From the IMG/VR virus record IMGVR_UViG_3300017917_002785, positions 1 to 35,873 of that record: a DNA stretch of 35,873 nucleotides, one strand, 5' to 3'. The translations under genes were made by a program, and so were the position numbers. Each line of letters opens with the position of its first letter. Within the stretch, counting starts at the first letter, position 1. This document shows, piece by piece, positions 5,534-33,603 of the stretch. The DNA is from a virus. Under the pieces are notes generated by a model that was not told the DNA's origin, searched no databases, and saw only the letters and a program-made list of their open reading frames with translations.

Positions 5534-5719
5534 ATGATAATTGTAGAAATAAAAAACTCAGATAATATTGAGAGGGCTTTAAAGATATTAAAGTCTAAAG
5601 TAATTAAGACAAAACAAACTCAAATTTTGTTTGATAGAAAAGAATTTACCAAACCTTCGGTTAGAAAAAGAACGGAAAAATTAAAGGCGATGTATATCCA
5701 AAAAAAGAAAAGCTCTTAA
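5534..5719 (+). CDS. rpsU: Ribosomal protein bS21
   Basis: This 61-residue basic protein has the bS21 layout: a short N-terminal strand (MIIVEIKNSDNIERALKILK), a helix, then FTKPSVRKRTEKLKAMYIQKKK, matching the (F/Y)xKPSxxKRxxKxKAxYxxx core of Bacteroidetes bS21. bS21 sits on the 30S platform near the 3' end of 16S rRNA; in Bacteroidetes, bS21 with bS6 and bS18 is reported to hold the anti-Shine-Dalgarno tail. A phage copy could therefore exchange with the host protein and change mRNA choice. The gene is on the plus strand within an otherwise minus-strand head block, and its stop overlaps the stop of the 232-residue gene by three bases. A variant of the usual element (GATATTTGTAAT) precedes the ATG. 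Confidence 0.88.
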   Translation: MIIVEIKNSDNIERALKILKSKVIKTKQTQILFDRKEFTKPSVRKRTEKLKAMYIQKKKSS

Positions 5720-6414
5720 ATAGAGCTTTCTAAATTCTTTAATTTTAAGAAATTCATTTGGTCGAATTTCTCATCTTTTAATCTTTCGATTGTTTCAGAG
5801 ATTTTTGTTTTTAATTCAAACTCCTCTTCTTTTTCTAAAATTGTTTGTAATTTAGAAATCGCACTTTCTTTAAGAGTTTCAAATTTTGTTTCTAAAACAT
5901 TACTATCTTCTGAAATAATTTGTAAAAATTCTTTTTTAGAATTTTCATCCATAGTCTCAATATAAGTTCTTAAAGTTTGGTTTGCAATGTTGACCATAGA
6001 TTTAATTGGAATATTGATACTTTCTTTTACAAGTTTATTATCAGACATAACCACGCTAATAATTCCTTTTTTAGCATTAACTCTCTCTAATAAATTTAGT
6101 TTGTTAGTATATACTAAAGTATCAATATTGGAATATTTGTTCTCAATTTTTTCAGATATTGTTTTTGGTAATTTAATATCTGAAGATAATTTTTGTATTA
6201 ATTTGATTCCCTCCTCAACAAATTCTTTGGCATCAGATTCGGACAATCCTTGTGGAGTGCTTAATTGGTCGTACAAAGCATATACTTTTGACATTGTTTT
6301 ATTACTCAGAACATTTTGTCTGAATTCTCTCAATGATTTTTTGAAATCCGATTCGTTCTTGTAGGATTCAATTAAATTGTTTTCAATTATGGATTTTACT
6401 TGTCCGAAAGTCAT
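5716..6414 (-). CDS. Unknown helical protein between portal and protease
   Basis: A 232-residue, almost wholly helical, charged protein with no motif I recognise. The N-terminus MTFGQVKSIIENNLIESYKNE is amphipathic and holds I-x-E and L-x-E triplets that could be prohead-protease sites. It follows the portal gene at the position of T4 genes 67/68, so it may be an internal prohead or portal-associated protein; this is inference from position. A TATTTAT element (6431-6437) lies about 16 bases before the ATG. Its 3' end meets the bS21 gene head-on with a three-base overlap, and a short GAAAGCTC-type inverted repeat spans the junction (about 5708-5731), perhaps a weak shared terminator. Confidence 0.7.
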   Translation of the reverse strand: MTFGQVKSIIENNLIESYKNESDFKKSLREFRQNVLSNKTMSKVYALYDQLSTPQGLSESDAKEFVEEGIKLIQKLSSDIKLPKTISEKIENKYSNIDTLVYTNKLNLLERVNAKKGIISVVMSDNKLVKESINIPIKSMVNIANQTLRTYIETMDENSKKEFLQIISEDSNVLETKFETLKESAISKLQTILEKEEEFELKTKISETIERLKDEKFDQMNFLKLKNLESSI

Positions 6415-6437
6415 TTTGTGTGGTTTTCAAATAAATA

Positions 6438-8300
6438 TTACGAGTTTAGTAACTTATCTAATTCTTTTGTGATTTCACCCAAAGAATCTTGTGCAACCCC
6501 CAAATTTATTATTTGAGCCCCTTCAATTAGGTTATTTTCAACTAAAATATTCAAATTATCCATTCTTGATTCTGGTGTTACCCCTCCTTCGGTTGGTGGA
6601 AGAGGAGCCTCTCCGCCCGCTTCTTCAGGTGGTAATGCACCGCCCTCACCACCAATACCTTCTTCTGGTGGCGGTGTTGGAGTTGAGAATGACCCTCCTC
6701 CAAATGATGGTTCTTCTGGTGTTGTTGCCGTTGCAGTTGCAGTACCTCCAGATGAATTACCATATAGTTTGTCAATATTATCAAATAATCCTGTTTTATT
6801 AATAACGGTAGGAGTTGCTTTAAGTTCTTCTCCAACCGCTCTTTCGATTCTTTGTTGTTGTAGGTCAAGTCTAATTTCTTCGTCAGACCAACCAAAAATA
6901 TGTTTCTTTGCCCAAGTTGATGATGTAGGTTGAATCCCGTTTCCTGGGTCCGCAACCAAATCTTTGTATAATAAAACTTTTTCTTTCCAAACATCAATTT
7001 TTAACAAATCTGCTTGAGTGGATGGGTTTGTTAAACCTAAAGTAAAGTTCGATAATTCATCTTCAAATCCTAATAAAAATAAATGTACAATTGCAATTTT
7101 ATTTAATTCTTGCAACATACTTTTTTGGATTCTGTTAATAGTTCTAGCAAAACGAATATCCTGTAATGATAGATTTTTACCATCTCCAACGACTTCTTCA
7201 AATCCTAAAAACGCTTTAGGCACACGAAGAGCGGTTAATAATTTCTTTTGAATATATTCTATATCGGCAATCTCTGATAGGTTTGTGGCGCCAGGTAATG
7301 TTGTAATTGGGTCCGGTGCTGCAGGGTCTCTAACAGGTATAAAATAATCTTGGTCAACCGCCATTTGGTTAAACCTCATATCCACATTCCCTGTTTTACT
7401 ATCAACGATTTGTTCTCTCTTGAATTTATTGGCGACACGATTTACATATGCCTCAACATCATCATCATTCATGTTTCCAACAAACACTTTAAACATTCTT
7501 CTTTCAGGTGCTCTTGATGTTCTATAAATCAACATCGCATCTTCAGAAAGTAAAAGTTGTTTCCATGTTCTTCTTGCCTTTTCTAACATAGAAGTACCAT
7601 AAGGAAGTTTTCTATCATCACCCAATAATCTAAAATGAGCAATTTCCCAAGACTGAAATTCCATGTTTTTATTTTTCCATGTAAATGTCATTGGTTTTCT
7701 TTCACCTTGAGGTTCGACCGTTGTTGTAATTTTTTGTGTTGTTCCCACTTCATGTCTTTCAATCTCAATCGTAGGTAATTGTTGACAACCTACAATTCCT
7801 TTTTCAGGGTCTAATTTCAAGTAAACAAAGTTATCTCCGTACTTACAGGTATTTCTTGTCCACATTGGTAAGTTAGTATTGATATCAAGTGCATTGTTAA
7901 ATAAATCCGCTAAAACACCTTTAATCCTTTTTGATTCAGAATATATTTGAAGAATAAACCCATCTTCATTTGTTGTTGTTGATTCTTCAGCGTAGATATC
8001 TAAAGCAGCCGAAATCTCAGGAGTGTATTCCATAGATTCATAGTCATATTGTGACGATAATCTTGTTGGTTCGTAATAAACTGCTTGAGAGTATAAATTA
8101 TTCTCAACTTTTGCCCATTGATTTGTTAAATAGAACGTTTGTTGAGCCTGTAGCTTTTCTTTTTCGTATTCTTCTCTGCTTTTTGTGCGTAGAAGTTCTT
8201 TCTTATCAAACTTAAATGTTGGATAATCCTGATTTAATAATGAATTTGGCCCGAATGTTTTCGATAATCGTTGCCAAACTGTCATGTTTTGTTCGCTCAT
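6438..8300 (-). CDS. Portal vertex protein, T4 gp20-like
   Basis: A 620-residue portal (T4 gp20 is 524). It forms the dodecameric ring through which DNA enters the head. Recognisable gp20 features include the N-terminal YDYESMEYTPEISAALDIYAEE block (cited in part, about residues 84-105), WTRNTCKYGDNFVYLK, the wing/stem region FRLLGDDRKLPYGTSMLEKA, RTSRAPERRMFKVFVGNM, and LRVPKAFLGFEE in the crown region. After residue ~505 comes a Gly/Pro/Glu-rich low-complexity tail (~60 residues) and then a final helical segment, which are additions over T4. It lies directly after the terminase gene and has a TATTTAT element (8330-8336) about 31 bases upstream. Confidence 0.93.
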   Translation of the reverse strand: MSEQNMTVWQRLSKTFGPNSLLNQDYPTFKFDKKELLRTKSREEYEKEKLQAQQTFYLTNQWAKVENNLYSQAVYYEPTRLSSQYDYESMEYTPEISAALDIYAEESTTTNEDGFILQIYSESKRIKGVLADLFNNALDINTNLPMWTRNTCKYGDNFVYLKLDPEKGIVGCQQLPTIEIERHEVGTTQKITTTVEPQGERKPMTFTWKNKNMEFQSWEIAHFRLLGDDRKLPYGTSMLEKARRTWKQLLLSEDAMLIYRTSRAPERRMFKVFVGNMNDDDVEAYVNRVANKFKREQIVDSKTGNVDMRFNQMAVDQDYFIPVRDPAAPDPITTLPGATNLSEIADIEYIQKKLLTALRVPKAFLGFEEVVGDGKNLSLQDIRFARTINRIQKSMLQELNKIAIVHLFLLGFEDELSNFTLGLTNPSTQADLLKIDVWKEKVLLYKDLVADPGNGIQPTSSTWAKKHIFGWSDEEIRLDLQQQRIERAVGEELKATPTVINKTGLFDNIDKLYGNSSGGTATATATTPEEPSFGGGSFSTPTPPPEEGIGGEGGALPPEEAGGEAPLPPTEGGVTPESRMDNLNILVENNLIEGAQIINLGVAQDSLGEITKELDKLLNS

Positions 8301-8340
8301 CTTATAATTTTACTTGTTACCTTGATAATATAAATAGTTA

Positions 8341-10101
8341 TTACGCACCAAATAACCATCCATACTTTTTATAATCATCTTTTGATGGTCCTTGGTTTGT
8401 GAGTCTGGGGTCTCTACCCATTTGAGGTACCATTGGATTAAAAAATTCTGAGCTATTTTTATTTTCACTAATTGCCGTTGACCAAGAATTTAACATGGCT
8501 TTAGTGTGATTTGTAACTTTTTCTAATGATTGAAAAGATTTTTCTGCAACATATATCGCCATAGAAATTCCCATTATACAATCGTCATGATGTCCCTTTT
8601 GGTGGTCGGGCCTTCCATTAACGTAAATGAATGTATTCATTTCATTATATAATCTATGAGAATAAACTTTAAATCCGTGTCTTGCGGCCTCTTCTAATGC
8701 GGCAATAATTTGTACTCTTTTACTGTTAAAATTAATACCTGGTATTTTTTCATTTAACTTGGGATCGTATTTCCACTTATTGGTAGTATCGACGTTGTCC
8801 ACATACAATCCTCCACCGTAACTCATTTCTTGCATTCTTCTTGCGGTGGATACACCCATACCACCTGTGATATCAATTACACAATAAGCATTGTACATCG
8901 TACCCCACTTGTAGGCTATCTCCGCAGTTACGTCTGGAGGTACTTTTCCGACGTATTCAAGTACTTGTTCTCTCGTATCAAAGTCAATTATCTGAATACA
9001 AGAGAAGTCTTCAGAATCCCCTCTAGATACGTCAACACCCATTACATATTTGTGTCCGTTTTCAGGTTCCTTAAATATCCATAATCCTCCTCCCATCATC
9101 TTAGCCATAGGGTCTCTTAACTGATTTTTAGCAATATTCTGCATTAAATCAGAATCAAATACGTTATCACCCGAACCTAAAAAGTTACATTCCAACTCCT
9201 GAGCCACTTTTCTCCTATCGTACTTTAACTTTTTAACCATACCTTCGAACCAAGCGGAACAAGGTTTATATCCTTGGTTAATATAATCAGTTACAACTGA
9301 GTGGTCTCTTTCATATGGATTATCCATAGATAAATCAATCACAACATCGGTAAGGTTATAGTCTTCTCTATTTAATAGGAAATGAACTAAATCATTTGTT
9401 TTAACCACATATAAATCCTTGGTATATCTTGGGTCACGATACCAAAACATTTCAGAAATTTTGAAATCATTCATATTTCTTAATGCTTGGTCATAAATTT
9501 CATAATAGATTGGGTCATATCCGTTTGGAGTGGATACAACAATAACTTTACCACCCGTAGAAAGTGATGCCATACAGGCAGACCAGAAATCATTATCCGC
9601 CTCGATGAACGCGGCCTCATCAAAAATAAGAATAGTTGGGGTATAACCTCTCAACGCATCTTTTGACGTTGCAACGGCTTTAACTTCACAATCGTTAGTT
9701 AATTTAAAATGTCTTGCGGCGTTCTTTTTAGGGTCAAAACCAACTCCAACCCACGCAGGCCATTGTTCGGTAAATCCTCTAATTTTGTTGGCCATCTCCA
9801 CAGATGTATCCAACTTATTAGCAATAATTAGGATTTTTTCAGGTTTTTGTTTTTTTGCAAAAACTAATTTTTTAGATGCCCAAGCGGCGGTTACGGTGGA
9901 AACACCTGCCTGACGATATTTTAACGCAATATTTTCGTTGTAATTATCGTAGTCTTCGATAAGACTAATTTGGTCAGGGAATAAATCTAATGGAACATAC
10001 TTTGATACCGTATTATCGTATGTCTGTAAATAAGTACGAAGTGCATAAGGAGTATTCCTCATACACTTCGTAACTTCAATAATTAATTGTTCTTTAGTCA
10101 C
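8341..10101 (-). CDS. Terminase large subunit, T4 gp17-like packaging ATPase/nuclease
   Basis: A 586-residue DNA-packaging motor protein. The ATPase half shows an adenine-binding Q/ARDFQ-like zone, a Walker A-like loop KYRQAGVST (61-69) of the SRQxGKS/T type, and Walker B TILIFDEAAF with Asp161/Glu162. The nuclease half (RNase H fold) shows VMGVDVSRGDSEDFS (Asp357), YCVIDITGGMG (Asp410) and HHDDCIMG near residue 530, the three acidic clusters expected for metal binding. Length is close to T4 gp17 (610). The gene begins six bases after the stop of the upstream 432-residue gene, so they form one operon. The Walker A loop has Val in place of the usual Lys of a GKT, a variation to check against relatives. 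Confidence 0.94.
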   Translation of the reverse strand: MTKEQLIIEVTKCMRNTPYALRTYLQTYDNTVSKYVPLDLFPDQISLIEDYDNYNENIALKYRQAGVSTVTAAWASKKLVFAKKQKPEKILIIANKLDTSVEMANKIRGFTEQWPAWVGVGFDPKKNAARHFKLTNDCEVKAVATSKDALRGYTPTILIFDEAAFIEADNDFWSACMASLSTGGKVIVVSTPNGYDPIYYEIYDQALRNMNDFKISEMFWYRDPRYTKDLYVVKTNDLVHFLLNREDYNLTDVVIDLSMDNPYERDHSVVTDYINQGYKPCSAWFEGMVKKLKYDRRKVAQELECNFLGSGDNVFDSDLMQNIAKNQLRDPMAKMMGGGLWIFKEPENGHKYVMGVDVSRGDSEDFSCIQIIDFDTREQVLEYVGKVPPDVTAEIAYKWGTMYNAYCVIDITGGMGVSTARRMQEMSYGGGLYVDNVDTTNKWKYDPKLNEKIPGINFNSKRVQIIAALEEAARHGFKVYSHRLYNEMNTFIYVNGRPDHQKGHHDDCIMGISMAIYVAEKSFQSLEKVTNHTKAMLNSWSTAISENKNSSEFFNPMVPQMGRDPRLTNQGPSKDDYKKYGWLFGA

Positions 10102-10107
10102 AAATTG

Positions 10108-11406
10108 TTATTTGGGTCTCGATATACCCAAACTACCTAAGAAATCATCTAAACCATCTTCATCATCTTCGTCAGAGTCAATATTCTCCTCTTCTTTATA
10201 ATTTTCGAACTCATCTTTCATATTTTGAGCTTCCTTCATAATTTCTTCAAATTTTCTGGTTGCCTTTTTAACTTTAGATTCGTCCTCAGAAATGGCATTT
10301 CCTATGATTTCCAAAAATTCTTGTGCAGGTATTTGGTATAGCAAGATATGGAACCAGTTTATTAGACCTTTGTTTGAATCGTCAAACATTTGGTCTGGTA
10401 GTGCGAACCTAAGTTTCTCAACGATTTCAGGTCCAATTCTTAATTGCATAGGCTCATTTGATAATATATCAACTTGTCCTTGTACTTTTTGACGCATTCC
10501 AGGTTCTTTTGGTAATCCGTGTCTACCTTTAGCTTCTTCTAATCCTTTGATGATTTCATGACAAAGAATTGGGAAAATCATGCCTTGTGCAATGATTTTA
10601 GTGTCAGGTTTTTCTTCACCTTCTTCTCCACCTTCATCATCACCATCGGCATCATCTAATTCTACTTTACCGGCAACACCTTGCCCTGTCTGACTCATCA
10701 TTTCAATCATCTGTTCCATTGTAAAATACAAGAAATCATTAATTGCCATAATACCCAAATAGTCTCTATATAACGATGGGTTAATCGCATCTAATCTCTC
10801 TTTAATATCCGGTTTTTGGAAAAGGTAATGTCCTTTTTTTGCGGCACCTTGGATGATTGCATTTATAATATTTCTTTTATGTTTTTCTAATTCTAATTGC
10901 TCCTCGTCTGTTAAATCCTCAATATCAAATGATGGAATATCAAGAGATTGTTTTTCTTCTTCTTCATCCTCTTCCTCATCTTCAGGCTCTTCAGGGTTGT
11001 ATCTAAAATTTGAAGTGTCAATAGGATTACCTAATTGAGCTTCAATTTCATACCATCCCTCAGGAACTTCTCCCTCTTCTAACGCAGCATCAATAGCTAA
11101 TTGTTCAAGTTCTTCTTTATGGGCGGCTTCGATTCTCATTATATTAGGAAGCTTTCTCATCATTTCTTGATAAATCATTCCTTGAACTTGTTTTGAACTA
11201 ATATCTTGAATTCCCGTAACTTCTTTTAATTTGTCCGCAACTTTACCGAATCTTTGACTTACAAGTCTTTGTACGTCCGCGCTTCCTTTTTTCATCGCAG
11301 GATTAGATGCGTACAAATTCTCAGGACTACCTAATTTTCTTTCCAAATTAGGGTCCATTCTTTCAGGTCTATTGCCGTAATCTATTTGTTCTTTTATTTT
11401 AGCCAT
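10108..11406 (-). CDS. Unknown conserved phage protein upstream of terminase
   Basis: A 432-residue acidic, mainly helical protein. It has two Asp/Glu-rich low-complexity stretches (about 138-152 and 245-265) and an acidic C-terminus ending DDFLGSLGISRPK. Conserved-looking blocks are LERKLGSPENLYASNPAM, an RFGKVADKLKEVTG helix, and a C-terminal half with MFDDSNKGLINWFHILLYQIP. I cannot assign a family. It lies immediately before terminase in the same transcript, so a role in packaging or the head is plausible, but the place of the small terminase subunit (gp16) would normally require a DNA-binding helix-turn-helix that I do not see. Confidence 0.75.
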   Translation of the reverse strand: MAKIKEQIDYGNRPERMDPNLERKLGSPENLYASNPAMKKGSADVQRLVSQRFGKVADKLKEVTGIQDISSKQVQGMIYQEMMRKLPNIMRIEAAHKEELEQLAIDAALEEGEVPEGWYEIEAQLGNPIDTSNFRYNPEEPEDEEEDEEEEKQSLDIPSFDIEDLTDEEQLELEKHKRNIINAIIQGAAKKGHYLFQKPDIKERLDAINPSLYRDYLGIMAINDFLYFTMEQMIEMMSQTGQGVAGKVELDDADGDDEGGEEGEEKPDTKIIAQGMIFPILCHEIIKGLEEAKGRHGLPKEPGMRQKVQGQVDILSNEPMQLRIGPEIVEKLRFALPDQMFDDSNKGLINWFHILLYQIPAQEFLEIIGNAISEDESKVKKATRKFEEIMKEAQNMKDEFENYKEEENIDSDEDDEDGLDDFLGSLGISRPK

Positions 11407-11410
11407 TTTC

Positions 11411-12247
11411 TTATTTTTCTAACATTTTAATAATAACATTAATTACCTCATCTTTTGCATTTTCAGGTGATATTTTTTTCGCCTTTGGTGCGGGTTTTTC
11501 ACCAGGGTTTGGATTTTTGCCAGGATGTGATGGTCTTGGTTTTTTATCGGGAGTCCCAGGTTTAGTTGTTGGTGATGTTTTTGGTTTTGAAGGTGCGGTT
11601 GTTGTACCTTTAAAATCTTGAATATGTTTTGTTGCAAAACTCTCACCTTCGGTGAGATAATTCACTAAATCTCCTTTTGTAATTCTTGGAGGTAAATTTT
11701 TCTCTACTATTTTCATAATTTGATTTTCGATAAACAAAGATACGGGATTTTTTCCTTCCTTTAATTGTTTTTTTACCGATTGAACACATCTTTCAAATTT
11801 TCTTGTTTTCTTAGGTCCTACCTGTGCGTGACATATCGCCCAAGGGTTTGGCTTTTGTTTAGATTCATCAATAACTGATTCGATAGCGTTTAGAACATTT
11901 TTTTCAGTTTCGTTATCTGAATCATCGTCCATTCCATCTGGTGCCATTTTTTGATTTGGAGTTTGAGTTGTCTCTCCTTGAGATGCGTCGTCTTTGTCTA
12001 CTTCTACGCCATTCTGTTCATCGAGTTCTTCTTCATAAGTAATGAATGATTGTTTTTTAGCCATAGCTTCTCTTTCTTGAGGTGATCCTTTAGGAACTTT
12101 TAAAATGCCAGTTGTTGTTTGTTCACTTAACAAATCTTTAAACAATTTGTTATGTAAAACATCAATTTGCGATTCATTCAATTTAGAAACCGTCTTTGCG
12201 GATAGTCCCTTTTCGATTAATTCAAGTGCTTTTATATTAGTTTTCAT
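11411..12247 (-). CDS. Unknown protein with possible N-terminal prohead-protease site
   Basis: I place the start at ATG 12247 (MKTNIKALELIEKGLSAKTV); a longer frame from TTG 12265 is open but less likely. The 278-residue product has an N-terminal helical segment ending LFKDLLSE at residue 42, followed by a flexible Gln/Thr/Gly-rich zone, then an acidic Asn/Asp stretch. A small block WAICHAQVGPKKTRKFERCVQSVKKQ resembles short conserved motifs of phage proteins with a Cys/His pair (cited in part), and a Pro/Lys-rich linker (about 215-255) leads to a final helix. The L-S-E at residue 42 fits the prohead protease pattern. The start overlaps the end of the upstream gene by 11 bases, so translation is probably coupled. 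Function unknown. Confidence 0.7.
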   Translation of the reverse strand: MKTNIKALELIEKGLSAKTVSKLNESQIDVLHNKLFKDLLSEQTTTGILKVPKGSPQEREAMAKKQSFITYEEELDEQNGVEVDKDDASQGETTQTPNQKMAPDGMDDDSDNETEKNVLNAIESVIDESKQKPNPWAICHAQVGPKKTRKFERCVQSVKKQLKEGKNPVSLFIENQIMKIVEKNLPPRITKGDLVNYLTEGESFATKHIQDFKGTTTAPSKPKTSPTTKPGTPDKKPRPSHPGKNPNPGEKPAPKAKKISPENAKDEVINVIIKMLEK

Positions 12248-12629
12248 ATATAACTTTCTTTTCAAATTCCAAAATCAAATCTCTTTCATAGAGTTTGTCT
12301 TTTATTTCTTGTTCTGTTGCTCCGAATCTAAAGACCAATCTTTTTTGACCTTGTACTTCTTCGGATTCCCAGGCTAACGCAACCACATCATCCATTGCGT
12401 CTATCATACAAAAAAAATCGGAGTTCTGAATCAATTCCAATTTTATATCAGTATTTCTCAGAACTCCTACCTTTTTAATATATTTTAATTCGGGAGGGAC
12501 TGGATAACCATTACAAGGTTTACTTTCCCAATATTCTCCCCACACATCTAAAACATCAGAAAATATAAATTCGTAAAGATTGTCTCCTTTATAATTAGGA
12601 CCTAAACCATTTACGTAAATTAATTTCAT
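12237..12629 (-). CDS. Unknown 130-residue phage protein
   Basis: A compact alpha/beta protein beginning MKLIYVNGLGPNYKGDNLYE, followed by FSDVLDVWGEYWESKPCNGYP and ending with a helical segment. I do not recognise a family, but the sequence has no low-complexity regions and looks like a folded domain. The ATG overlaps the stop of the upstream 408-residue gene as ATGA, and its own end overlaps the downstream start, so three consecutive genes appear translationally coupled. Confidence 0.72.
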   Translation of the reverse strand: MKLIYVNGLGPNYKGDNLYEFIFSDVLDVWGEYWESKPCNGYPVPPELKYIKKVGVLRNTDIKLELIQNSDFFCMIDAMDDVVALAWESEEVQGQKRLVFRFGATEQEIKDKLYERDLILEFEKKVIYEN

Positions 12630-13852: not shown

Positions 13853-13872
13853 TTTATCTATTTATTTTTTTT

Positions 13873-14433: not shown

Positions 14434-14446
14434 CTATTTTTTCTTA

Positions 14447-14453
14447 ATAAATA
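14447..14453 (-). promoter_or_regulatory. TATTTAT promoter-like element
   Basis: The sense strand reads TATATTTATT, 12 bases before the ATG of the Thr/Pro-repeat gene, in the 63-base gap after the nucleotidyltransferase gene. Confidence 0.45.
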
Positions 14454-14496
14454 TACGATTATATGAATAATTTACGTAATTACTTAAATATCGTAA

Positions 14497-15240
14497 TTAC
14501 TCCTCTATTTTTCTTTCGACGGAAAGCTCTTTATCTAACTCTTTATTTGTAGCATCAAAGAGCTTTTGGATATGACCTGACCTTCTTAAGAATTTAAAAA
14601 CTAAATTTTCATAAGAAAGTTCCCCATCTTTTTCCAATCCTGATTTCCTATATTCCTTTAATTTATCTTTAATCGCCTCAAGTTTTTTACCGTCAGAACC
14701 TTTTTCAGATTCTTCAACCGCATTATCAATCTTCTCCGTCCAAGATTTTATTTTTTTAGACAGAACTTCTTTGTCAATATCTTTATTAAACTTTTCAGGT
14801 TTACTAATCCATTCGTCATCCATAATTGAATAAACCCCTGTACTAAAATGAGGCTCACTTTCATCTTGAGCATAAAGTTCTACATCATATCCATATATTT
14901 TGATATCGTGCTTATCATTAAAAACCTGCTTTTTCAGATTATACAATTCTTTATATAAATCAGATTGTTTTCCAAAATGTTCTAAATTAACAAGTATGTG
15001 TAAGTCAAAATCAGAAAACTCTGACCAGTTGAAATTGGCCAACGAACCAGTAAGAACAATATCCTCAACAAAAACATCTTCCCCCAAATAATCAATAAAT
15101 TCTTCTGCAATATTTTTCAATGCCTTTAGAACTTTTGGGTTTAAGGTTGCTTTGTCGGGATTTTCAGGATTGTCCCAAACTTTCGGATTCAAAGTTTTCT
15201 TAAGAGAAAAACTATCTAAAATTTTTTGGAAATTGCTCAT
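14497..15240 (-). CDS. Nucleotidyltransferase, DNA polymerase beta-like fold
   Basis: A 247-residue protein with a clear Pol-beta-type nucleotidyltransferase signature: VLTGSLANFNWSEFSDFDLHI, cited in pieces as TGSLANF and SDFDLHIL, giving the Gly-Ser pair and the Asp-x-Asp metal pair, with a later acidic strand YDVELYA that can give the third carboxylate. The helical C-terminal half contains LSYENLVFKFLRRSGHIQKL. Proteins of this superfamily transfer NMP groups to proteins, RNA or small molecules; the target here cannot be told. It has no obvious paired HEPN gene beside it, which argues against a simple MNT/HEPN toxin-antitoxin pair. A TATTTAT element (15246-15252) lies only four bases before the ATG. 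Confidence 0.75.
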   Translation of the reverse strand: MSNFQKILDSFSLKKTLNPKVWDNPENPDKATLNPKVLKALKNIAEEFIDYLGEDVFVEDIVLTGSLANFNWSEFSDFDLHILVNLEHFGKQSDLYKELYNLKKQVFNDKHDIKIYGYDVELYAQDESEPHFSTGVYSIMDDEWISKPEKFNKDIDKEVLSKKIKSWTEKIDNAVEESEKGSDGKKLEAIKDKLKEYRKSGLEKDGELSYENLVFKFLRRSGHIQKLFDATNKELDKELSVERKIEE

Positions 15241-15261
15241 TGTTAATAAATACTACAAAAC

Positions 15262-15504
15262 TTATAGTTTTTTGTATTTGTATTTCTTGGCAATATCAGT
15301 TGTGAAAAATTTACCTTGTGATTCAGATATTCTAAATCTTGTGTAAATTTGATGTGGTACATTTTCGTACTCGTATTTGAGACCGTTGTTAAATTCAACA
15401 ATTAATTTTTTATTCTCGGTGTCGTATTCAGTTTTTTTAATGTTAGAAGATTTTATCTCATTAATAATCTTCGTCCCTTGAATCTCTTCTCTTACTATAG
15501 CCAT
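15262..15504 (-). CDS. KTSC-domain protein
   Basis: An 80-residue protein that matches the KTSC domain pattern: IKSSNIKKTEYDTENKKL, then LIVEFNNGLKYEYENVP, then YTRFRISESQGKFFTTDI near the C-terminus. KTSC domains occur at the end of some lysyl-tRNA synthetases and as stand-alone small proteins in bacteria and phages; a nucleic-acid-binding role is proposed but unproven. The start overlaps the upstream 111-residue gene by 44 bases in another frame. An internal start is not obvious because the conserved core begins about residue 14. Confidence 0.78.
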   Translation of the reverse strand: MAIVREEIQGTKIINEIKSSNIKKTEYDTENKKLIVEFNNGLKYEYENVPHQIYTRFRISESQGKFFTTDIAKKYKYKKL

Positions 15505-15796
15505 TTTCTGATAAAGGTGTTATTTCGTTAATTTTTTCAAGTAATGGTTTCACGAATTCAATAAACTCGTTCCAACTTATATCAAAACCATAATCTTTAA
15601 CTTGCTGAAATAAAGCCTTTTGAGTATCACCAAACTTATGAAATAATCTCATCATTTTTTCAGTATACATTGGCGGTTTCTCTAAGTCAGATTCACTGAA
15701 TCCTACCTCTTGAAAATGTTTTCTTAAATCAAGATATATTTCAATTAAATGTCTTAGCCCGACACGGTCATGTAAAAATTTTTCGTATGGTTTCAT
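15461..15796 (-). CDS. Unknown 111-residue helical protein
   Basis: A helical protein beginning MKPYEKFLHDRVGLRHLIEI, with no family that I recognise; it has Trp/Phe-containing helices (YGFDISWNEFIEFVKPLLEK) and a charged tail ending RDSRDEDY. The tail overlaps the KTSC start by 44 bases. Two overlapping TATTTAT elements (15797-15803 and 15801-15807) abut the ATG, close to the terminator of the hsp20 gene. Confidence 0.65.
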   Translation of the reverse strand: MKPYEKFLHDRVGLRHLIEIYLDLRKHFQEVGFSESDLEKPPMYTEKMMRLFHKFGDTQKALFQQVKDYGFDISWNEFIEFVKPLLEKINEITPLSENGYSKRRDSRDEDY

Positions 15797-15808
15797 ATAA
15801 ATAAATAC

Positions 15809-15839
15809 AAAACCCCACCAAAAAGTTGATGGGGTTTTA
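15809..15839 (-). terminator. Intrinsic terminator after hsp20
   Basis: Stem AAAACCCCA / TGGGGTTTT with A- and T-runs on its flanks lies 18 bases past the hsp20 stop. Because both flanks carry the homopolymer runs it could work in both directions, but only the minus-strand hsp20 ends here. Confidence 0.8.
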
Positions 15840-15857
15840 ATTCAAACATATTAATGG

Positions 15858-16259
15858 TTAAAGAATACTGATTCTTTTCTTATCTTGTTTTTTGTAATTA
15901 GGTACGAATACCGTCAGAAGACCATCTTCAATAGTTGCTTCAATAGAAGAAGAATTATATCCTTCACCGATTTTAAATTGTTTCTTAATTGATTTGGTTT
16001 TTTCCTCACCATTTAACTTATAGGTTCTAACACCTTCAATATGGATAGTACCACCTTCCATTTCCACCTTTAAATTTGTTTTATTAAAACCAGGGGCATC
16101 AAAGAAAAGATACGCACCATCTTTAGTGTGGTTAATTTCATAAGATTCTTCCGAATCTCCGTTTTTCAAAACTGTTGTTGAGTAATTGTAATTACTTCTT
16201 CCTCTGTTGTTAAAAAATGTGTCAAACAAATCATTTAATTCTGAACTGTTGTAAATCAT
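15858..16259 (-). CDS. Small heat-shock protein Hsp20 (alpha-crystallin family)
   Basis: A 133-residue holdase chaperone that keeps unfolding proteins soluble for later refolding or degradation. The alpha-crystallin domain spans about residues 35-128: YEINHTKDGAYLFFDAPGFNK, then NLKVEMEGGTIHIEGVR, and the conserved ATIEDGLLTVFVPN strand. The C-terminal I-x-I anchor is present as ISI at the end. Small heat-shock genes are known in other large T4-like phages. It is divergent from the ClpC-like gene, with three TGACA/TGTCA dyads in between, so the two are probably co-regulated. No TATTTAT element precedes it. Confidence 0.92.
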   Translation of the reverse strand: MIYNSSELNDLFDTFFNNRGRSNYNYSTTVLKNGDSEESYEINHTKDGAYLFFDAPGFNKTNLKVEMEGGTIHIEGVRTYKLNGEEKTKSIKKQFKIGEGYNSSSIEATIEDGLLTVFVPNYKKQDKKRISIL

Positions 16260-16292
16260 AGTTTTCTATTTTTTATTTTAAAATTTATTATT

Positions 16293-16300
16293 TATCTTTG
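16293..16300 (+). promoter_or_regulatory. TATCTTTG box, possible distal promoter for the clp gene
   Basis: A perfect match to the Bacteroidetes -7 consensus TAnnTTTG on the plus strand, but without a TTTG about 20 bases upstream. If active it would give a leader of about 155 bases containing all three dyads. Confidence 0.35.
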
Positions 16301-16332
16301 TTGTAGTCAAGTTTGATGCCAATGGAACAAAT

Positions 16333-16408
16333 ATGACAATCTGTATGTCATTTTTAAACCAATATGTCATTTTGACACACAAATAAAAAATATAATGACA
16401 ATATGTCA
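16333..16408. promoter_or_regulatory. Cluster of three TGACA/TGTCA dyads between hsp20 and clp
   Basis: Three inverted repeats occur in 76 bases: TGACA-N7-TGTCA (16334-16350), TGTCA-TTT-TGACA (16365-16377) and TGACA-ATA-TGTCA (16396-16408). Spacing is about 31 bases between centres, or three helical turns. They look like operators for a dimeric regulator controlling both divergent stress genes. I do not recognise the regulator. Confidence 0.65.
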
Positions 16409-16414
16409 AAATAT

Positions 16415-16445
16415 TTTGCAGTGTCCAATTTTTGATACATCTTTG
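16415..16445 (+). promoter_or_regulatory. Bacteroidetes-type promoter for the clp gene (one mismatch)
   Basis: TTTG at 16415-16418, a 19-base spacer and CATCTTTG at 16438-16445 approximate TTTG-N19/20-TAnnTTTG with one mismatch. Transcription would begin a few bases before ATG 16462, which supports that start rather than the upstream TTG 16432. The third dyad lies just upstream. Confidence 0.45.
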
Positions 16446-16461
16446 TAAAAATTATTTAACT

Positions 16462-18477
16462 ATGAACGATTTAATGGACGATGACGACAAAATGATGAGT
16501 AAAAAACAAAAACAATCTTCAGACAGTAATACACCTGTCTTGGATAATTTCAGTAGAGATTTAAATAAACTCGCTGAAGCAGGAAAACTCGACCCTGTTA
16601 TTGGTCGTGACCGTGAGATTTTAAGAATTGCTCAAATTCTATCTCGTAGGAAAAAGAATAACCCAATTATCATAGGTGAACCTGGTTGTGGTAAAACTGC
16701 AATTGTTGAGGGTCTTGCCATGAAAATTGTTAGTGGAGAATGTCCAAGAAATTTGGTCGATAAACGAATTGTAAATCTTGATTTAACTTCGGTTGTTGCC
16801 GGTACAAAGTACCGCGGTCAATTTGAAGAAAGAATGAAAGTGATTATTGAAGAACTTCAGGCAAATCCTAACATTATCGTATTCATCGACGAAATTCACA
16901 CCCTTGTTGGGTCTGGTAATTCAGCAGGTTCTATGGATGGTTCCAATATCTTCAAACCCGCACTTTCTCGCGGAGAACTCCAATGTATTGGTGCAACAAC
17001 TAATGATGAATTCCGTAAGAACATCGAAAAAGACGGAGCATTAGAGCGTAGATTCCAAAAGGTTATGGTTGAACCGTCTACTGTAAGTGAGACCATTCAA
17101 ATCCTTAAAAATGTTCGTGACAAATACGAATCATATCACAAGGTAAATTACACCGATGAGATTATTGAAACTTGCGTTAAGTTGGCGGACAGATATATTA
17201 CCGACCGTGAGTTCCCAGATAAAGCATTTGATATCTTGGATGAGGTTGGGGCTCGTATGCAAACCGAAGTAAAAGTTCCTGAAGTTATTGAAGACCTTAA
17301 AAAGAAGGCCGCAGAACTTAAACTATTGAAACTTGAGGTGGTTAAAAAACAAAACTACGAGCAAGCCGCAGACTTGAGAGATAAAGAGAAAAAACTCCTT
17401 GATAAACTTGAGGCAGAAAAGACCAAGTTCGAAGAACAGATGCAAAAAGATAAACAAACCATATCTTTGGAAGATGTATATGATGTTGTGTCTAATATGA
17501 CAAAAATCCCTGTAAATAAGATGAGTGCCGATGATTCAAAGGCTCTGTTGAACTTGGATAAAGAATTAATGGGTAAAGTTATTGGTCAGGATGCTGCAGT
17601 TGTTAAGATTGCAAAATCAATCAAAAGAAACCGTCTTGGTATTAAAGACCCAAATCGTCCAATCGGTTCGTTCATCTTCTTGGGTTCCACAGGTGTTGGT
17701 AAGACCCACTTGGCAAAACAACTCGCAAAAGAAATGTTTGGTTCCGAAGATTCTCTTATCCGTGTGGATATGAGTGAATATCAGGAAAAACATACCGTAT
17801 CTAAATTGGTTGGAGCACCTCCCGGATATGTTGGATACGAAGAGGGTGGAATGTTGACCGAAAAGGTTAAGAACAAACCATATTCTGTTATCTTATTTGA
17901 TGAGGTTGAAAAGGCGCATAAAGACGTGTTTACCGTCCTTCTTCAAATCCTTGATGATGGTCACGTTACAGATAGTCTAGGTCGTAAGATTAATTTCAAG
18001 AATACCTTGATTATTCTTACATCTAACTTGGGTGTTAAAAAACTTCAGGATTTTGGTACAGGTATTGGATTTGGTAGTAATTCCTATTCTAATGAAGAGG
18101 CTAAGAAACAAGTATTGATGAAAGAGATGAAGAATTTCTTCTCCCCTGAGTTCCTAAACCGTATTGATGATACGATTGTGTTCAATTCATTGACACCTGA
18201 GGATATTAAAAAAATCACAGAAATCGAACTTAAGAAGTTGGTTACTCGTCTTGGAGATATGAAATACACAATTGGATATGATGAGACTCTTGTCAATTAC
18301 TTGGCAAAGGTTGGGTTCGACGAATTGTATGGTGCTCGTCCATTGAAAAGAGCAATCCAAGATAAGATTGAGGACCTTTTATCCGAAGAGGTATTAACGG
18401 GTAGAATGATTGAGGGTAAAACCTACAATCTAAAGGTTGAGGGTGAGGAAGTTAAAGTGGTTAAAAAAGGTAGATAA
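16462..18477 (+). CDS. ClpC-like AAA+ unfoldase lacking the N-terminal Clp repeats
   Basis: A 671-residue Hsp100 protein with two AAA+ modules; it should unfold proteins with ATP. D1: Walker A GEPGCGKT (72-79), Walker [11 protein letters not shown] (about 139-148), and arginine-finger region LERRF. A UVR-like coiled segment [16 protein letters not shown] (295-310) replaces the long ClpB coiled coil and points to ClpC. D2: Walker A GSTGVGKT (408-415), pore loop GYVGYEEGG, Walker [12 protein letters not shown] loop TGIGFGS holds IGF (535-537), at the site where ClpA/ClpC/ClpX bind ClpP. Host ClpC is about 800 residues or more, with ~150 residues of Clp_N repeats; here only an acidic, Lys-rich lead of ~25 residues remains, so adaptor use must differ. 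The start at ATG 16462 is preferred because promoter boxes overlap the TTG 16432 alternative. No clpP gene lies in the window. Confidence 0.93.
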
Positions 18478-18478
18478 A

Positions 18479-18506
18479 TAAAAGGGGGAGAAATCCTCCT
18501 TTTATT
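18479..18506 (+). terminator. Intrinsic terminator after the clp gene
   Basis: AAAAGGGGGA / TCCTCCTTTT stem (one G-U pair) with a four-base loop and a T-rich end immediately follows the clp stop codon. Confidence 0.7.
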
Positions 18507-18507
18507 A

Positions 18508-18514
18508 TATTTAT
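18508..18514 (+). promoter_or_regulatory. TATTTAT promoter-like element
   Basis: TATATTTATA ends about five bases before the ATG of the 115-residue gene and directly follows the clp terminator. It shows that the motif also occurs on the plus strand, in sense orientation to the downstream gene. Confidence 0.45.
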
Positions 18515-18519
18515 ATGTT

Positions 18520-18867
18520 ATGAATTTACAAGAACAAATTGATAGAAATAAAGAACTAATGAATATTGTTAATTTATCTGACTTGAAGGACGCTGGAACT
18601 TGGAGTGCAGACGCTTTAGTTAGAGTAAAGAAAGGTAGAGGCGTATACACTTACGATAAAGGTAAATTCGTTAAGAGAGATAGAGAACCAGAAGAAAGAA
18701 ATAGTTGGAGGTGGGGACACAAACCTAAGGATGTTTTTTATCTAACAAATGAAGAAGCTGAAACAGTTAATAGTCTTATATTAAGAGCCAGAGAATTAGA
18801 ATTGGAGTCAAAAAAAATTAGAGAAGAAATCAAACAAATTATTGGTTCCAATAAAAAATACAAATGA
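18520..18867 (+). CDS. Unknown 115-residue protein
   Basis: A basic protein beginning MNLQEQIDRNKELMNIVNLS. The middle (VKKGRGVYTYDKGKFVKRDREPEE) is strongly charged, a WRWGHKPKDVFYLT block follows, and the end is a coiled helix. No family is recognised. Its stop overlaps the ATG of the metallopeptidase gene as ATGA, so the two are probably translated together. Confidence 0.65.
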   Translation: MNLQEQIDRNKELMNIVNLSDLKDAGTWSADALVRVKKGRGVYTYDKGKFVKRDREPEERNSWRWGHKPKDVFYLTNEEAETVNSLILRARELELESKKIREEIKQIIGSNKKYK

Positions 18868-19619
18868 AAGACCTAATTAAGAAAATATTAAAAGAAACTA
18901 TTAATAACGGTAAAGTTATTTGTGATAATTGTGGATGGTCTTGGAGTTTGAATAATGGAGGTGGTGATAAATATGTTTGTCATAAATGTGGCCACGATAA
19001 CAAACCAAAACAATCCAATTTAGATAGAATAGTTGATAAATTTAAATCTAAATTTCCTGTGGAATATCAGGATAAATTTGAAAGGATTAAAAAATTTGTT
19101 AAAGATTATATTACCTCAAACGGTTATAATGTTAAATTTTTAAATGCTTGTAATACAGGATTTGGTGGTGTCAGAACTAAAGACCAGATAATTGTTTGTT
19201 CTCCATCTAATATGGAAAGTATTGGTGATTTTCTCTATACCATTTTTCACGAAATAAGACACGAATCTCAAGTATCCAAAATTAAAATGGATAACCCATT
19301 AAGCGATTATGATTTAGATGATTTTGAAAAAATATACAAGCAATATTGGGAAATGGAGTTAGACGCCGACCAATTTGCAAAAAATATGGTCGGCAAATTA
19401 ATTCGGCATCTTGACATCCCTATTGATATTGCAAAAGAACAATTCTCACTTTCTCCATATATTAAAAACTATCCATCTATGTCTAAAATGATTGAGAGTT
19501 CTTTAAGACAGATAGTTGACCAAATTAAGATAATAAAAAAATCGGGTGGAGAATATGAAGATATTCAAGACCACCCGATAGTAAAAAGACATTTAGATAA
19601 ATTAGAGTCTCTGATTTAA
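18864..19619 (+). CDS. Zinc-ribbon metallopeptidase (zincin with HEIRH)
   Basis: A 251-residue protein. Its N-terminal 11 residues MKDLIKKILKE form a short amphipathic helix ending L-K-E, followed by a zinc ribbon with CDNCGW (Cys20, Cys23) and CHKCGHD (Cys39, Cys42). The catalytic part has the zincin motif HEIRHES (129-135; His129, Glu130, His133) and a downstream MELDAD (Glu165) that can supply the third zinc ligand, as in gluzincins. No signal peptide is seen, so it should act in the cytoplasm or be carried in the virion. The helix resembles the T4 capsid-targeting sequence, which ends in I-A-E. Its end overlaps the convergent peptidase gene by four bases. Substrate unknown. Confidence 0.75.
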   Translation: MKDLIKKILKETINNGKVICDNCGWSWSLNNGGGDKYVCHKCGHDNKPKQSNLDRIVDKFKSKFPVEYQDKFERIKKFVKDYITSNGYNVKFLNACNTGFGGVRTKDQIIVCSPSNMESIGDFLYTIFHEIRHESQVSKIKMDNPLSDYDLDDFEKIYKQYWEMELDADQFAKNMVGKLIRHLDIPIDIAKEQFSLSPYIKNYPSMSKMIESSLRQIVDQIKIIKKSGGEYEDIQDHPIVKRHLDKLESLI

Positions 19620-20458
19620 AAAACTCTTCTGGTTCTCCAATCGTAACTGACCGCTTTCTTAAAATGAAGATTGTATCCCAAACTTTCAATCATTTTACGA
19701 CCCATATCAATTCCATTAAAAACATCTTCAATTACAACATACTCATTTCTTGTATGATAATTGTAATATCCGATTGAGAAATTAATACAAGAGAAATCAA
19801 ATTTACCTCTTAATGCGTAAACATCAGTGTATGGATGGACCATATATTGCATACTTTGATTATCCATACCTTCAGTTAATACTTTATCACATACTGTGAA
19901 AAATTCCGAATCCCTATCAAAAAGAACTTGTCCGAAACATTTTTCGGTAATCATCCAATTCTCAGGAGCATCGAATTGTATACCATATCCAACATTCGTG
20001 AAAAATTCTTCTTTTGCCCTTAATGACCCGTGGCATCCTGTTTCTTCCGAAACAAAAAAAGCCGCTTTAAGATATGGTAATTCTTTAAGTAATGTTAAAC
20101 ATGCAAAAACACCGCATTTATCGTCACCACCAATACCTGTAGGGTTATCAGAATCGTTATAGGCCTTCAAAGAAAGTTTAATTTCTTGTTGAGCATTTGG
20201 TAACATTTCTTCCCTAATGTTAATAGGTTCAATATTATGAACTGTGTCAGTATGTGAAATTACACACGGGAAGTAGAAATTTTCGGGGATAAGAACAGAC
20301 TCCTGTTTTGTTGCATAAACGTTGTTGTTTTCATCAACAAAATGTTCTATATTGTTTTCGGTCAACCAATTAACTAAAAACTCAACCATTCTTTCTTCCT
20401 GATAAGTTTTTGTTGGTACACTTAAAACATCTTTAAGTAGTTGTATATCTTTTGTCAT
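19616..20458 (-). CDS. M20/M28-type zinc peptidase without lid domain (peptidase T-like)
   Basis: A 280-residue co-catalytic zinc exopeptidase. All metal ligands are visible: ISHTDTVH (His69, Asp71), GIGGDDKCG (Asp112), the catalytic Glu pair SEETGCHGS (Glu138, Glu139), QFDAPEN (Asp163) and NYHTRNEY (His235). Typical peptidase T is about 410 residues; the ~110-residue dimerisation/lid domain that normally sits between the Asp and the last His is absent, so the phage version is a single catalytic domain. It would trim short peptides to amino acids, fitting downstream of Clp proteolysis. A perfect promoter TTTG-N20-TATCTTTG lies just upstream, with only four bases between box and ATG. Confidence 0.85.
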   Translation of the reverse strand: MTKDIQLLKDVLSVPTKTYQEERMVEFLVNWLTENNIEHFVDENNNVYATKQESVLIPENFYFPCVISHTDTVHNIEPINIREEMLPNAQQEIKLSLKAYNDSDNPTGIGGDDKCGVFACLTLLKELPYLKAAFFVSEETGCHGSLRAKEEFFTNVGYGIQFDAPENWMITEKCFGQVLFDRDSEFFTVCDKVLTEGMDNQSMQYMVHPYTDVYALRGKFDFSCINFSIGYYNYHTRNEYVVIEDVFNGIDMGRKMIESLGYNLHFKKAVSYDWRTRRVF

Positions 20459-20462
20459 TTAA

Positions 20463-20494
20463 CAAAGATATTAAAAATTTAGATTTCTTCCAAA
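20463..20494 (-). promoter_or_regulatory. TTTG-N20-TATCTTTG promoter of the M20/M28 peptidase gene
   Basis: On the minus strand TTTG (20494-20491) and TATCTTTG (20470-20463) are separated by exactly 20 bases, the Bacteroidetes housekeeping layout. The box ends four bases before ATG 20458, so the message should be leaderless or nearly so. Confidence 0.75.
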
Positions 20495-21522
20495 TTAAAT
20501 AATGAAGGTTGGTATAATAAATTATAAAAATTTTGTTCTGATACCTTAATTTTCTTTTGTTTAAACCCTTTTTGGAGTATTACAATAACTTTCATTGCGG
20601 GATATTCAAACCCATCAATTTTAAACCTGATCTCTTTTTTTGGGTCTTTTGGTAATTTATAGAACTTATCTTCTTTAAATTTTTTTGTAATTCTATCCGT
20701 CATTTGCGTATACTCTTGAACCGTTGCACCCTCTTCGCTATTTTCAAGTTTTTCTAATATATCATTCAACTTTTTTGATGCATAAGAATTAAATGACGAT
20801 TTGTTAAAATATTCATCGTTTTGGAATTCATATGAATTTTCATACCATCCACCAAGTCCATATTTATCACCATCTAAAATCTTTTTAAGAAATTCTTCCA
20901 ACGATAAATGAATACTATTTTCTTTTAGATATAGCATCATGAGGTTTGCAACCGTAGTTTTAAACCCATCACCATACAATTCAAATCCTAATCTTTCCAA
21001 ATATTCATTAACTTCTTTTTTTACTTTATGATGAGCCACATTTTGCATCTCACTATTTTTTTCACTTTGGTAATCGGAAAGAATATCTTCAATTTCACTT
21101 TTAAAATTTGTTAATAATTTTTCTGCAAACCCTTCTTTAAAATCACTATCCTCAATATCAAAAGGTTTTGAATATATTATTTTTGATATTTTTTTTAACA
21201 AGTCTATGTTTTCCTCATCAAAAACATACCAAACTCCATAACCATTTTTAAAATCGTCATTTACCGAATATTGATCCATAAACTCATAATCACTATAATA
21301 TGAAGTAACCACCTTATAAAACCAAGCGTCATCCTCACTCAAACCAATAGTTTCTAGAAACTTGTTTTCATCATCAAAATCTACAACAACTATACTTTGA
21401 CCTCTGTTTGAACGGTCTTCTTTTACCTCACTTATTAACTCATCAGAATCCTCCAATTCATATTTGTCAATCTTACCTCTAGTGTAGTTGCGTAATCCAA
21501 TAAATGTATCTAATGCTGCCAT
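20479..21522 (-). CDS. Unknown 347-residue protein
   Basis: An acidic, Tyr/Phe/Lys-rich protein, mixed alpha/beta at the N-terminus (SIVVVDFDDENKFLETIGLS) and helical later, with a C-terminal beta part (EIRFKIDGFEYPAMKVIVIL). No motif or family recognised. Its 3' end contains the -33 element of the next gene's promoter. A TATTTAT element (21529-21535) precedes the ATG by five bases, and the gene is divergent from the tmRNA. Confidence 0.68.
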   Translation of the reverse strand: MAALDTFIGLRNYTRGKIDKYELEDSDELISEVKEDRSNRGQSIVVVDFDDENKFLETIGLSEDDAWFYKVVTSYYSDYEFMDQYSVNDDFKNGYGVWYVFDEENIDLLKKISKIIYSKPFDIEDSDFKEGFAEKLLTNFKSEIEDILSDYQSEKNSEMQNVAHHKVKKEVNEYLERLGFELYGDGFKTTVANLMMLYLKENSIHLSLEEFLKKILDGDKYGLGGWYENSYEFQNDEYFNKSSFNSYASKKLNDILEKLENSEEGATVQEYTQMTDRITKKFKEDKFYKLPKDPKKEIRFKIDGFEYPAMKVIVILQKGFKQKKIKVSEQNFYNLLYQPSLFNLEEI

Positions 21523-21544
21523 ATCTGTATAAATACTTTTTTTC

Positions 21545-21576
21545 TTTGATTTTTTAAATATTTATCTTTATCTTTG
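21545..21576 (+). promoter_or_regulatory. TTTG-N20-TATCTTTG promoter of the tmRNA
   Basis: TTTG at 21545-21548, 20 bases, then TATCTTTG at 21569-21576: a perfect host-type Bacteroidetes promoter 19 bases upstream of the mature tmRNA end. The short leader would be removed by RNase P. Confidence 0.8.
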
Positions 21577-21595
21577 TATTGTTCTTTGAAAATAT

Positions 21596-21992
21596 GGGCT
21601 CGCCCTGGAATTGATTTCAGGTGTCAGGGATAAATTGCAAGTAGTCAGAATTCATCTATGACTTAAATACACGGTGAAAAAGATTAAATGGCAATACATT
21701 TGCTAAGCTTGCTGCTTTAGGTTTAACTAAAGAAGCTGCTGTTGTTGGTGCTTAATTAGTACAGAACAACACTTCGGGTCGGTTAGGACATATAACCTAG
21801 GAACAGAAGTCCGTCATGGGGGTCACAGGTCAGAGCTCCCTTAAAATAACTCTGAGACCAAGTTGTTTGTAGGTTGGTTTCTCACATATATCAAACCTAA
21901 TATTTCGTAACGTTGAGAAACAATGTTGTACTAAACTTGTAGTAATTTATTGTTGAATCTGGAAGACAGCGGTTCGACTCCGCTCGGGTCCA
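21596..21992 (+). ncRNA. ssrA: Transfer-messenger RNA (tmRNA)
   Basis: The ends form a tRNA-like domain: 5' GGGCTCG pairs with 3' CGGGTCC over seven base pairs, with the G3-U pair that marks alanine acceptance and discriminator A21992. A T-arm AGCGG-TTCGACT-CCGCT sits before it. No CCA is encoded. The tag frame starts at GGC 21690 (my choice, since Bacteroidetes tags usually start with Gly): GNTFAKLAA, then LGLTKEAAVVGA, and stop TAA at 21753-21755. The GC-rich central part (21760-21950) should hold the pseudoknots. With SmpB it frees stalled ribosomes and tags their products. A host-type promoter precedes it and a strong terminator follows at 22004-22030; smpB lies 129 bases downstream. The tag extension beyond LAA is described in the findings. 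Confidence 0.92.
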
Positions 21993-22003
21993 CTAAATAA
22001 AAA

Positions 22004-22030
22004 CGGGTTCCTAATTGGAACCCTTTTTTA
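22004..22030 (+). terminator. Intrinsic terminator of the tmRNA
   Basis: Perfect seven-base stem GGGTTCC / GGAACCC with a five-base loop and six T residues, 12 bases beyond the mature tmRNA end. Confidence 0.92.
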
Positions 22031-22120
22031 TTTACTACCTATCTTAATTTTCGTAATTAGAAAACAATAAGGTTTTTGAAAAAAAATAGGTTAATAAAAA
22101 AATATTCTTATTTTTGAGTC

Positions 22121-22555
22121 ATGAGTCAGGTTTTATATAATAAAAAGGCAACGTTCAATTATTCAATTGAATTAAAGTATATTGCAGGAATTGTGTTATT
22201 AGGTACTGAAGTTAAATCTATTCGAGAGGGTACAATTAACTTTGGTGATTCGTATTGTCTATTTATTAATAATGAACTATGGATTAGAGGATTACATATT
22301 TCAGAATATGGACACGGAACTATACATGAAACAATTAGAGATAGAAAACTCTTATTAAATAAAAAAGAGATTAGAAAAATCCAAAGTTTGATAAAAGAAC
22401 GAGGATTTACTATATTTCCCTTAAGAATTTTTTTCTGTGAAAAAAATATCGCTAAAATTGAGATTGCAATCGGAAAAGGTAAAAAGAATTACGATAAGAG
22501 AGAATCAATCAAAAAAAGAGAGTCCGAAAGAGACCTAAAAAACAATTGCGTATGA
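22121..22555 (+). CDS. smpB: SmpB, tmRNA-binding protein
   Basis: A 144-residue protein that binds tmRNA and carries it to stalled ribosomes. Family features are in order: NKKATFNYSIELKYIAGIVL at the N-terminus, GTEVKSIREGTINFGDSYC, HISEYGHGT (in the place of the usual HI..Y..G/A), RKLLLNKKEI and the long basic C-terminal part KGKKNYDKRESIKKRESERD, whose tail normally lies in the mRNA channel. The length fits the family (about 150). It is next to the tmRNA gene, so the phage carries both parts of the trans-translation pair. The stop overlaps the start of the glucosaminidase gene. Confidence 0.93.
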   Translation: MSQVLYNKKATFNYSIELKYIAGIVLLGTEVKSIREGTINFGDSYCLFINNELWIRGLHISEYGHGTIHETIRDRKLLLNKKEIRKIQSLIKERGFTIFPLRIFFCEKNIAKIEIAIGKGKKNYDKRESIKKRESERDLKNNCV

Positions 22556-29954: not shown

Positions 29955-29955
29955 T

Positions 29956-33505: not shown

Positions 33506-33603
33506 GTTTTTCTTTTTTTAGTTTAATGTTAATTAATAACTTATTAGAATATAAATATACTATAAATTGATTGATAAGTCAAATATTAGTTGTATTTTTT
33601 TTG

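Follow-up and report, generated by a model that had tools for sequence, protein, structure and literature searches.

Phage-encoded transfer-messenger RNAs (tmRNAs) have been noted for years, to our knowledge usually without a clear reason for a virus to carry its own. Both partners of trans-translation, tmRNA and SmpB, have already been reported in huge phages (Al-Shayeb et al. 2020, PMC7162821), and a study of methylophage Melnitz that surveys 402 phages with ssrA has hypothesized that amino acids are recycled by way of phage tmRNA (PMC9004378). The unusual tag of the bacterium Mesoplasma florum is degraded by Lon and not by ClpXP (PMC8138137), whilst bS21-encoding freshwater Bacteroidetes phages have genomes of 293–331 kb, with Clp protease and chaperones among their listed genes (Chen et al. 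2022, PMC9723584). Here we describe a tmRNA with a recoded, conserved tag, and a ClpC-type unfoldase encoded near it, in IMG/VR record IMGVR_UViG_3300017917_002785, a viral fragment of 35,873 bases that was analysed at its full length (the window). As far as our literature search reached, tmRNA, SmpB, bS21 and Clp are already known from large phages and the recoded tag is new: the open full-text literature yielded no description of a phage tmRNA tag that is both recoded and conserved, subscription papers and supplements lying outside the search. At somewhat short of an even chance, we favour a functional trans-translation system whose recoded tag most likely feeds a phage ClpC–ClpP protease.

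The huge phages of Al-Shayeb et al. resemble the window in encoding trans-translation partners, but the relevant passages of that report contain neither a recoded tag nor a tie to a phage ClpC–ClpP. Melnitz likewise has a phage tmRNA, proposed to tag host proteins for recycling, but its tmRNA is a two-piece, riboswitch-linked molecule and the passages concerned include no analysis of the tag sequence. The closest match is to the phages of Chen et al., which have the same gene order with an opposite-strand bS21, a large AT-rich genome and the same inferred hosts; the main-text passages compared, to which the comparison was confined with the supplement outside it, differ in containing no tmRNA, tag, TonB-like barrel or SmpB restricted to a single member. 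The window is a member of this known clade. Its bS21 gene (5534..5719, + strand; PF01165, E 9e-10) lies on the strand opposite to the block of terminase, portal, protease and major capsid protein genes around it, and the clade-defining large terminase (8341..10101, − strand) has at least 598 relatives in IMG/VR, of which the 80 kept show 86–90 % identity. The clade would appear to form a family of large viruses from lakes, widely distributed and probably infecting Bacteroidota.

The window tmRNA (ssrA; 21596..21995, + strand) comprises a tRNA-like domain, tag template and 3′ half, and was identified by ARAGORN and by RF00023 (83.9 bits, E 2.5e-31, above a gathering cut-off of 47). Alanine charging of tmRNA requires a G3–U70 pair, which is present in the window acceptor stem (GGGCTCG/CGGGTCC) and retained in 65/66 clade loci. 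All seven acceptor pairs form in each of the 66 loci across several different stem sequences, a pattern of compensatory pairing. The resume codon, an open tag frame and a stop are all present, and four nucleotides 5′ of that codon lies an A (21686 in the window) that is invariant over 72 loci; its Escherichia coli equivalent, A86, sets the tag reading frame (PMC2481249). Judged from these features, the clade tmRNA is intact and under selection to stay chargeable. The window tmRNA ends in ACTA, with no encoded CCA, whereas CCA is encoded in 48 of the 66 clade loci; a CCA-adding enzyme, either that of the host or the short one of the phage, is therefore needed here. As a separate observation, the genome of Flavobacterium hydrophilum (behind locus L186) contains a second tmRNA-like match above the Rfam cut-off (G077:C21:429305-429575), approximately 16 kb from its main ssrA.

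The tag ORF (21690..21755, + strand) was read by ARAGORN from resume codon GGC through the peptide GNTFAKLAALGLTKEAAVVGA to a TAA stop, and relatives share its 21-codon frame; an example of a 21-residue tag from the clade is GNTFAKMAALGLTREAVVVGA. Amongst the clade tmRNAs found by RF00023, the window included, 16/19 have 21 codons and 3/19 have 22, the longer form being confined to one subgroup. Tags of Bacteroidota hosts, in contrast, have 9 residues and end in ALAA or AMAA in all 25 genomes where the tag was read. An LAA ending occurs in no clade tag, either in the RF00023 set (0/19) or in the 72-locus set, and the window tag ends in VVGA rather than in the [LM]AA of a ClpXP-type degron. That ending is typical of tmRNAs but not universal, and hence is not required of one. 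Two other readings of the frame were discarded: a frame starting at GCA was not equally open across members and lay off the register of the conserved upstream A, and the short tag 'AEEATVVA' that ARAGORN reported in several relatives was a truncated call, the full frame giving 21 residues.

The 72-locus set was completed by a pattern scan on the first eight tag codons, so that identity over those codons is partly built in, and some of its contigs are counted twice. Across it, the tag occurred as 33 nucleotide variants encoding 28 peptides, with a conserved FAKMAxLGL core and a highly variable penultimate residue that can be K or E. The nonsynonymous/synonymous ratio was 0.28 overall and 0.14 inside one subgroup. 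The synonymous fraction reached 0.55, compared with a mean of 0.25 and a maximum of 0.48 when columns were shuffled, and none of 200 shuffles attained the observed value. These patterns show that the clade tag evolves as coding sequence, differing from the host tag in length as well as in sequence. They also bear on a rather unlikely alternative in which the system serves rescue only: the tag would be a spacer cleared by host proteases via its terminal alanine, the gain would lie in additional tmRNA at times of plentiful or cleaved phage mRNA, and conservation of the tag would partly reflect RNA structure. In keeping with this, ribosome release can outweigh the tag in phage assays (PMC2481249), the RF00023 alignment pairs part of the tag template, and the first shifted frame has a ratio of 0.40, so that some of the constraint is not frame-specific and the coding contrast is real without being extreme. 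The excess of synonymous changes in the tag frame nevertheless speaks against it, as do the lack of comparable constraint in the second shifted frame and a stop codon that switches between TAA and TGA at a fixed position.

The candidate reader of the tag is a 671 aa AAA+ unfoldase (16462..18477, + strand) with AAA, AAA_lid_9, AAA_2 and D2-small domains. No Clp_N match was found in the window ORF, which starts shortly before AAA-1, and the ORFs of relatives start at the same ATG. As the N-terminal adaptor-binding domain is absent, we refer to the protein as ClpC-type rather than ClpC. It otherwise resembles Bacteroidota ClpC in its two AAA+ modules, short middle domain, [IV]GF loop and position in the tree, but is shorter (671 aa vs 841–900 aa). 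Identity was 57–60 % to Bacteroidota ClpC and 83–92 % inside the clade. The ClpP-docking IGF loop, which ClpB does not have, and the grouping with Bacteroidota ClpC rule out a ClpB-type disaggregase, and the previous description of this gene as an unfoldase with a ClpP-docking motif is supported, such a protein being conserved in the clade. Each of three clade records longer than 300 kb contained exactly one gene with a ClpB-D2-small domain, that of the ClpC-type protein. ClpP was encoded in 11/11 clade records of at least 97 kb that were searched, and the aligned copies keep the Ser-His-Asp triad. Where coordinates allow, the distance from the tmRNA downstream to ClpP is approximately 20 kb, which would put the ClpP of the present genome beyond the window end. 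Phages of this clade can therefore supply both halves of a ClpC–ClpP protease, and host ClpP, on which an earlier note on this DNA had relied, is not a necessary partner.

In the mechanism that we favour, the phage tmRNA, together with SmpB (its own in this genome and presumably the host's in relatives), would enter stalled ribosomes and release them, so that the nascent chains receive the 21-residue tag specific to the phage instead of the 9-residue A[LM]AA tag of the host. The tag would most likely route rescued fragments to the phage ClpC-type unfoldase and ClpP, instead of or besides host ClpXP, and an M20-type peptidase encoded nearby could trim the degradation products. We infer that the tag may be a degron of phage ClpC–ClpP and that the amino acids would be recycled. 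A more specific version, in which a private 21-residue degron is read by the N-domain-less phage ClpC and ClpP, uncoupling rescue from host ClpXP and placing amino-acid and ribosome supply under phage control, is a serious possibility, albeit one towards which we do not yet lean. The M. florum tag and Lon provide a precedent, having a tag of different length and sequence and a protease other than ClpXP (PMC8138137), although that system is bacterial and Lon-based whereas the candidate here is a phage ClpC-type unfoldase with ClpP. A conserved tag unlike that of the host offers a testable answer to why a phage carries tmRNA, namely that it redirects the fate of rescued proteins. Should phage ClpC–ClpP be the sole reader of the tag, the arrangement would parallel, in a virus, the change to Lon in Mycoplasma; biotechnology would gain a new orthogonal pair of degron and protease, and the tag could mark phage translation in metaproteomes.

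Several observations weigh against this mechanism. The link from the tag to phage ClpC–ClpP is a putative one. Conservation of a tag is by itself no proof of degron function. Bacterial ClpC requires adaptors, and none was identified here. ClpP is known from the relatives, the window ending before its expected place, and SmpB is missing from relatives. Alanine is the last residue of nearly all clade tags, some of which host ClpXP may therefore recognize, and the tag of one clade member (L100) ends in TI. Furthermore, short host-like tags occur in other large phages, namely ANPEFAMAA in LR756511 and DDEI[DE]FRMAA in Lak phages.

A different role for the same tag, which we consider unlikely, would be stealth: rescue would proceed with no host degron attached, sparing phage polypeptides from host ClpXP, and the phage Clp would act in host takeover, virion quality control or similar. 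The clade tags do lack the LAA/MAA end found in 25/25 host tags, and the wide variation of their penultimate residue, K and E included, would suit such a role. Mere avoidance should not, however, preserve both a length of 21 and the FAKMAxLGL core, a constraint that suggests specific recognition, and the same genomes encode ClpC and ClpP. That the tmRNA, Clp, ClpP, peptidase and bS21 are simply translation and proteostasis genes gathered by a large phage with no joint mechanism is improbable: SmpB and the CCA enzyme are, like several further genes, variably present among relatives, ClpP is not adjacent to the tmRNA, and every one of these gene types has been reported on its own from large phages (PMC7162821), as had been said of this set before, but Clp, M20 and tmRNA are clustered in a fixed order clade-wide, with Clp and M20 strongly conserved.

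The preferred reading, in which a lengthened tag feeds a phage protease, can be set beside tags elsewhere. Long tags were present in three unrelated IMG/VR contigs (G007, 26 residues; G002, 25; G008, 27) and in the huge phages LR756504 (24 residues) and LR756508 (36), read in these phages by the resume-codon rule rather than by ARAGORN. Independent lengthening of the tag, to 24–36 residues, seems to have taken place in several unrelated large phages. The tag of phage G has 13 residues, and the short tags of LR756511 and the Lak phages rule out that all phage tmRNA tags are long. ClpP matches occurred in 8/9 of such tmRNA-bearing phage records, but short ClpP-like matches can be capsid proteases and this co-occurrence alone is therefore weak. 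Two huge phages that hold a full tmRNA also contain fragments consisting of the tRNA-like domain only, both exceeding the RF00023 cut-off (L342, LR756508.1 414804-414915, 112 nt; L343, LR756511.1 2250-2386, 137 nt). These are reminiscent of mycobacteriophage DS6A, in which such an RNA may titrate SmpB (PMC4131195).

The window SmpB (22121..22555, + strand; 144 aa) matched PF01668 (E 2e-52), passed two NCBIfam equivalog cut-offs and has a YDKR-type C-terminal tail, YDKRESIKKRESERD, that includes the DKR motif. With this protein and the intact acceptor stem and tag frame of the tmRNA, it is plausible, as the earlier note had proposed, that the phage can run trans-translation. SmpB was not detected by PF01668 in any of 36 clade records, two of them longer than 300 kb, or by tblastn in any of 118 clade loci. 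It is therefore not a clade-wide partner, and relatives with tmRNA presumably rely on host SmpB. In the tree, the protein grouped weakly with Chitinophagaceae on a long branch, lending no support to acquisition from other phages. A glucosaminidase ORF (22546-23055, + strand), with one match in the 118 clade loci, overlaps the end of smpB. The two genes sit between the tmRNA and an outer-membrane barrel gene in the window member only, and look like a single insertion. The CCA-adding enzyme described previously proved to be a short, 242 aa nucleotidyltransferase (29226..29954, + strand) whose CCA/poly(A)-polymerase head domain was confirmed (PF01743, E 4e-21); its best score, 113.7 bits, was far under every NCBIfam equivalog cut-off (at least 290), and only the head domain was recognized. 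It too was absent from all 118 clade loci. The suggestion of a complete chain with both trans-translation partners therefore does not describe a conserved system, SmpB and the CCA enzyme being peculiar to the window member; of the co-occurrence expected in relatives, conservation of the tmRNA and of the ClpC-type and M20-type proteins was borne out.

The genes listed in the earlier note were otherwise all real by profile matches and lie in one phage genome at or near the positions given there, with the tmRNA end placed at 21995. An artificial join of phage and host DNA, raised there as a concern, can be rejected: relatives share the order Clp, zinc-ribbon protein, M20, 20479 gene and tmRNA, with the barrel directly after in many, and the window SmpB is just 57–60 % like bacterial SmpBs. 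The M20/PepT-like peptidase (19616..20458, − strand; 280 aa) matched PHROG 4191 'peptidase' (E 1e-31) but fell under all Pfam cut-offs. Its HTDTV, GGDDK, EETG and FDAPEN motifs and a YHTRNE histidine, the presumed metal ligands, are invariant in 36 clade sequences, so that the M20-type assignment stands on these motifs and the PHROG match. The putative enzyme is 70–84 % identical among relatives and apparently too short for a lid/dimerization domain. The neighbouring zinc-ribbon protein (18864..19619, + strand), kept in most relatives, had no Pfam family above cut-off; its HExxH-like motif, HEIRHES, makes it a possible metallopeptidase. An Hsp20 small heat-shock protein (15858..16259, − strand; PF00011, E 7e-13) occurred in roughly half of the relatives inspected.

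Between the peptidase and the tmRNA, and transcribed away from the latter, is a gene for a conserved 347 aa protein with no assigned function (20479..21522, − strand). It was aligned across 25 members; identity to relatives is approximately 35–58 %, and the protein reaches 604 aa in some of them. The AlphaFold model was confident (pLDDT 90) and had no structural match in PDB or BFVD, which gave no basis for regarding it as a known adaptor; its predicted fold is apparently an undescribed one. The Oar/TonB-type outer-membrane barrel (23219-26515, + strand; 1,098 aa) combines PF25183 and CarboxypepD_reg with an apparent signal peptide. Matches were found in 28 clade loci; the barrel of relatives, directly 3′ of the tmRNA in many, is 73–76 % identical, and the protein could possibly serve as a receptor decoy, in a superinfection block or in nutrient uptake. 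Of the six or more tRNAs previously counted, five are complete, in a Ser, Ile, Met, Arg and Gln cluster (33603..35733, − strand), and a sixth (35805-35873) is cut by the window end. The listed start of a ferritin/rubrerythrin-like ORF (33987-34649, − strand) overlaps the tRNA-Met gene (34603-34675). The window additionally encodes a DoxX-like membrane protein (27377-27718), a protein with a HAD-type Swiss Army Knife RNA-repair domain (29944-30561) and a YciA-like hotdog thioesterase (30530-30901).

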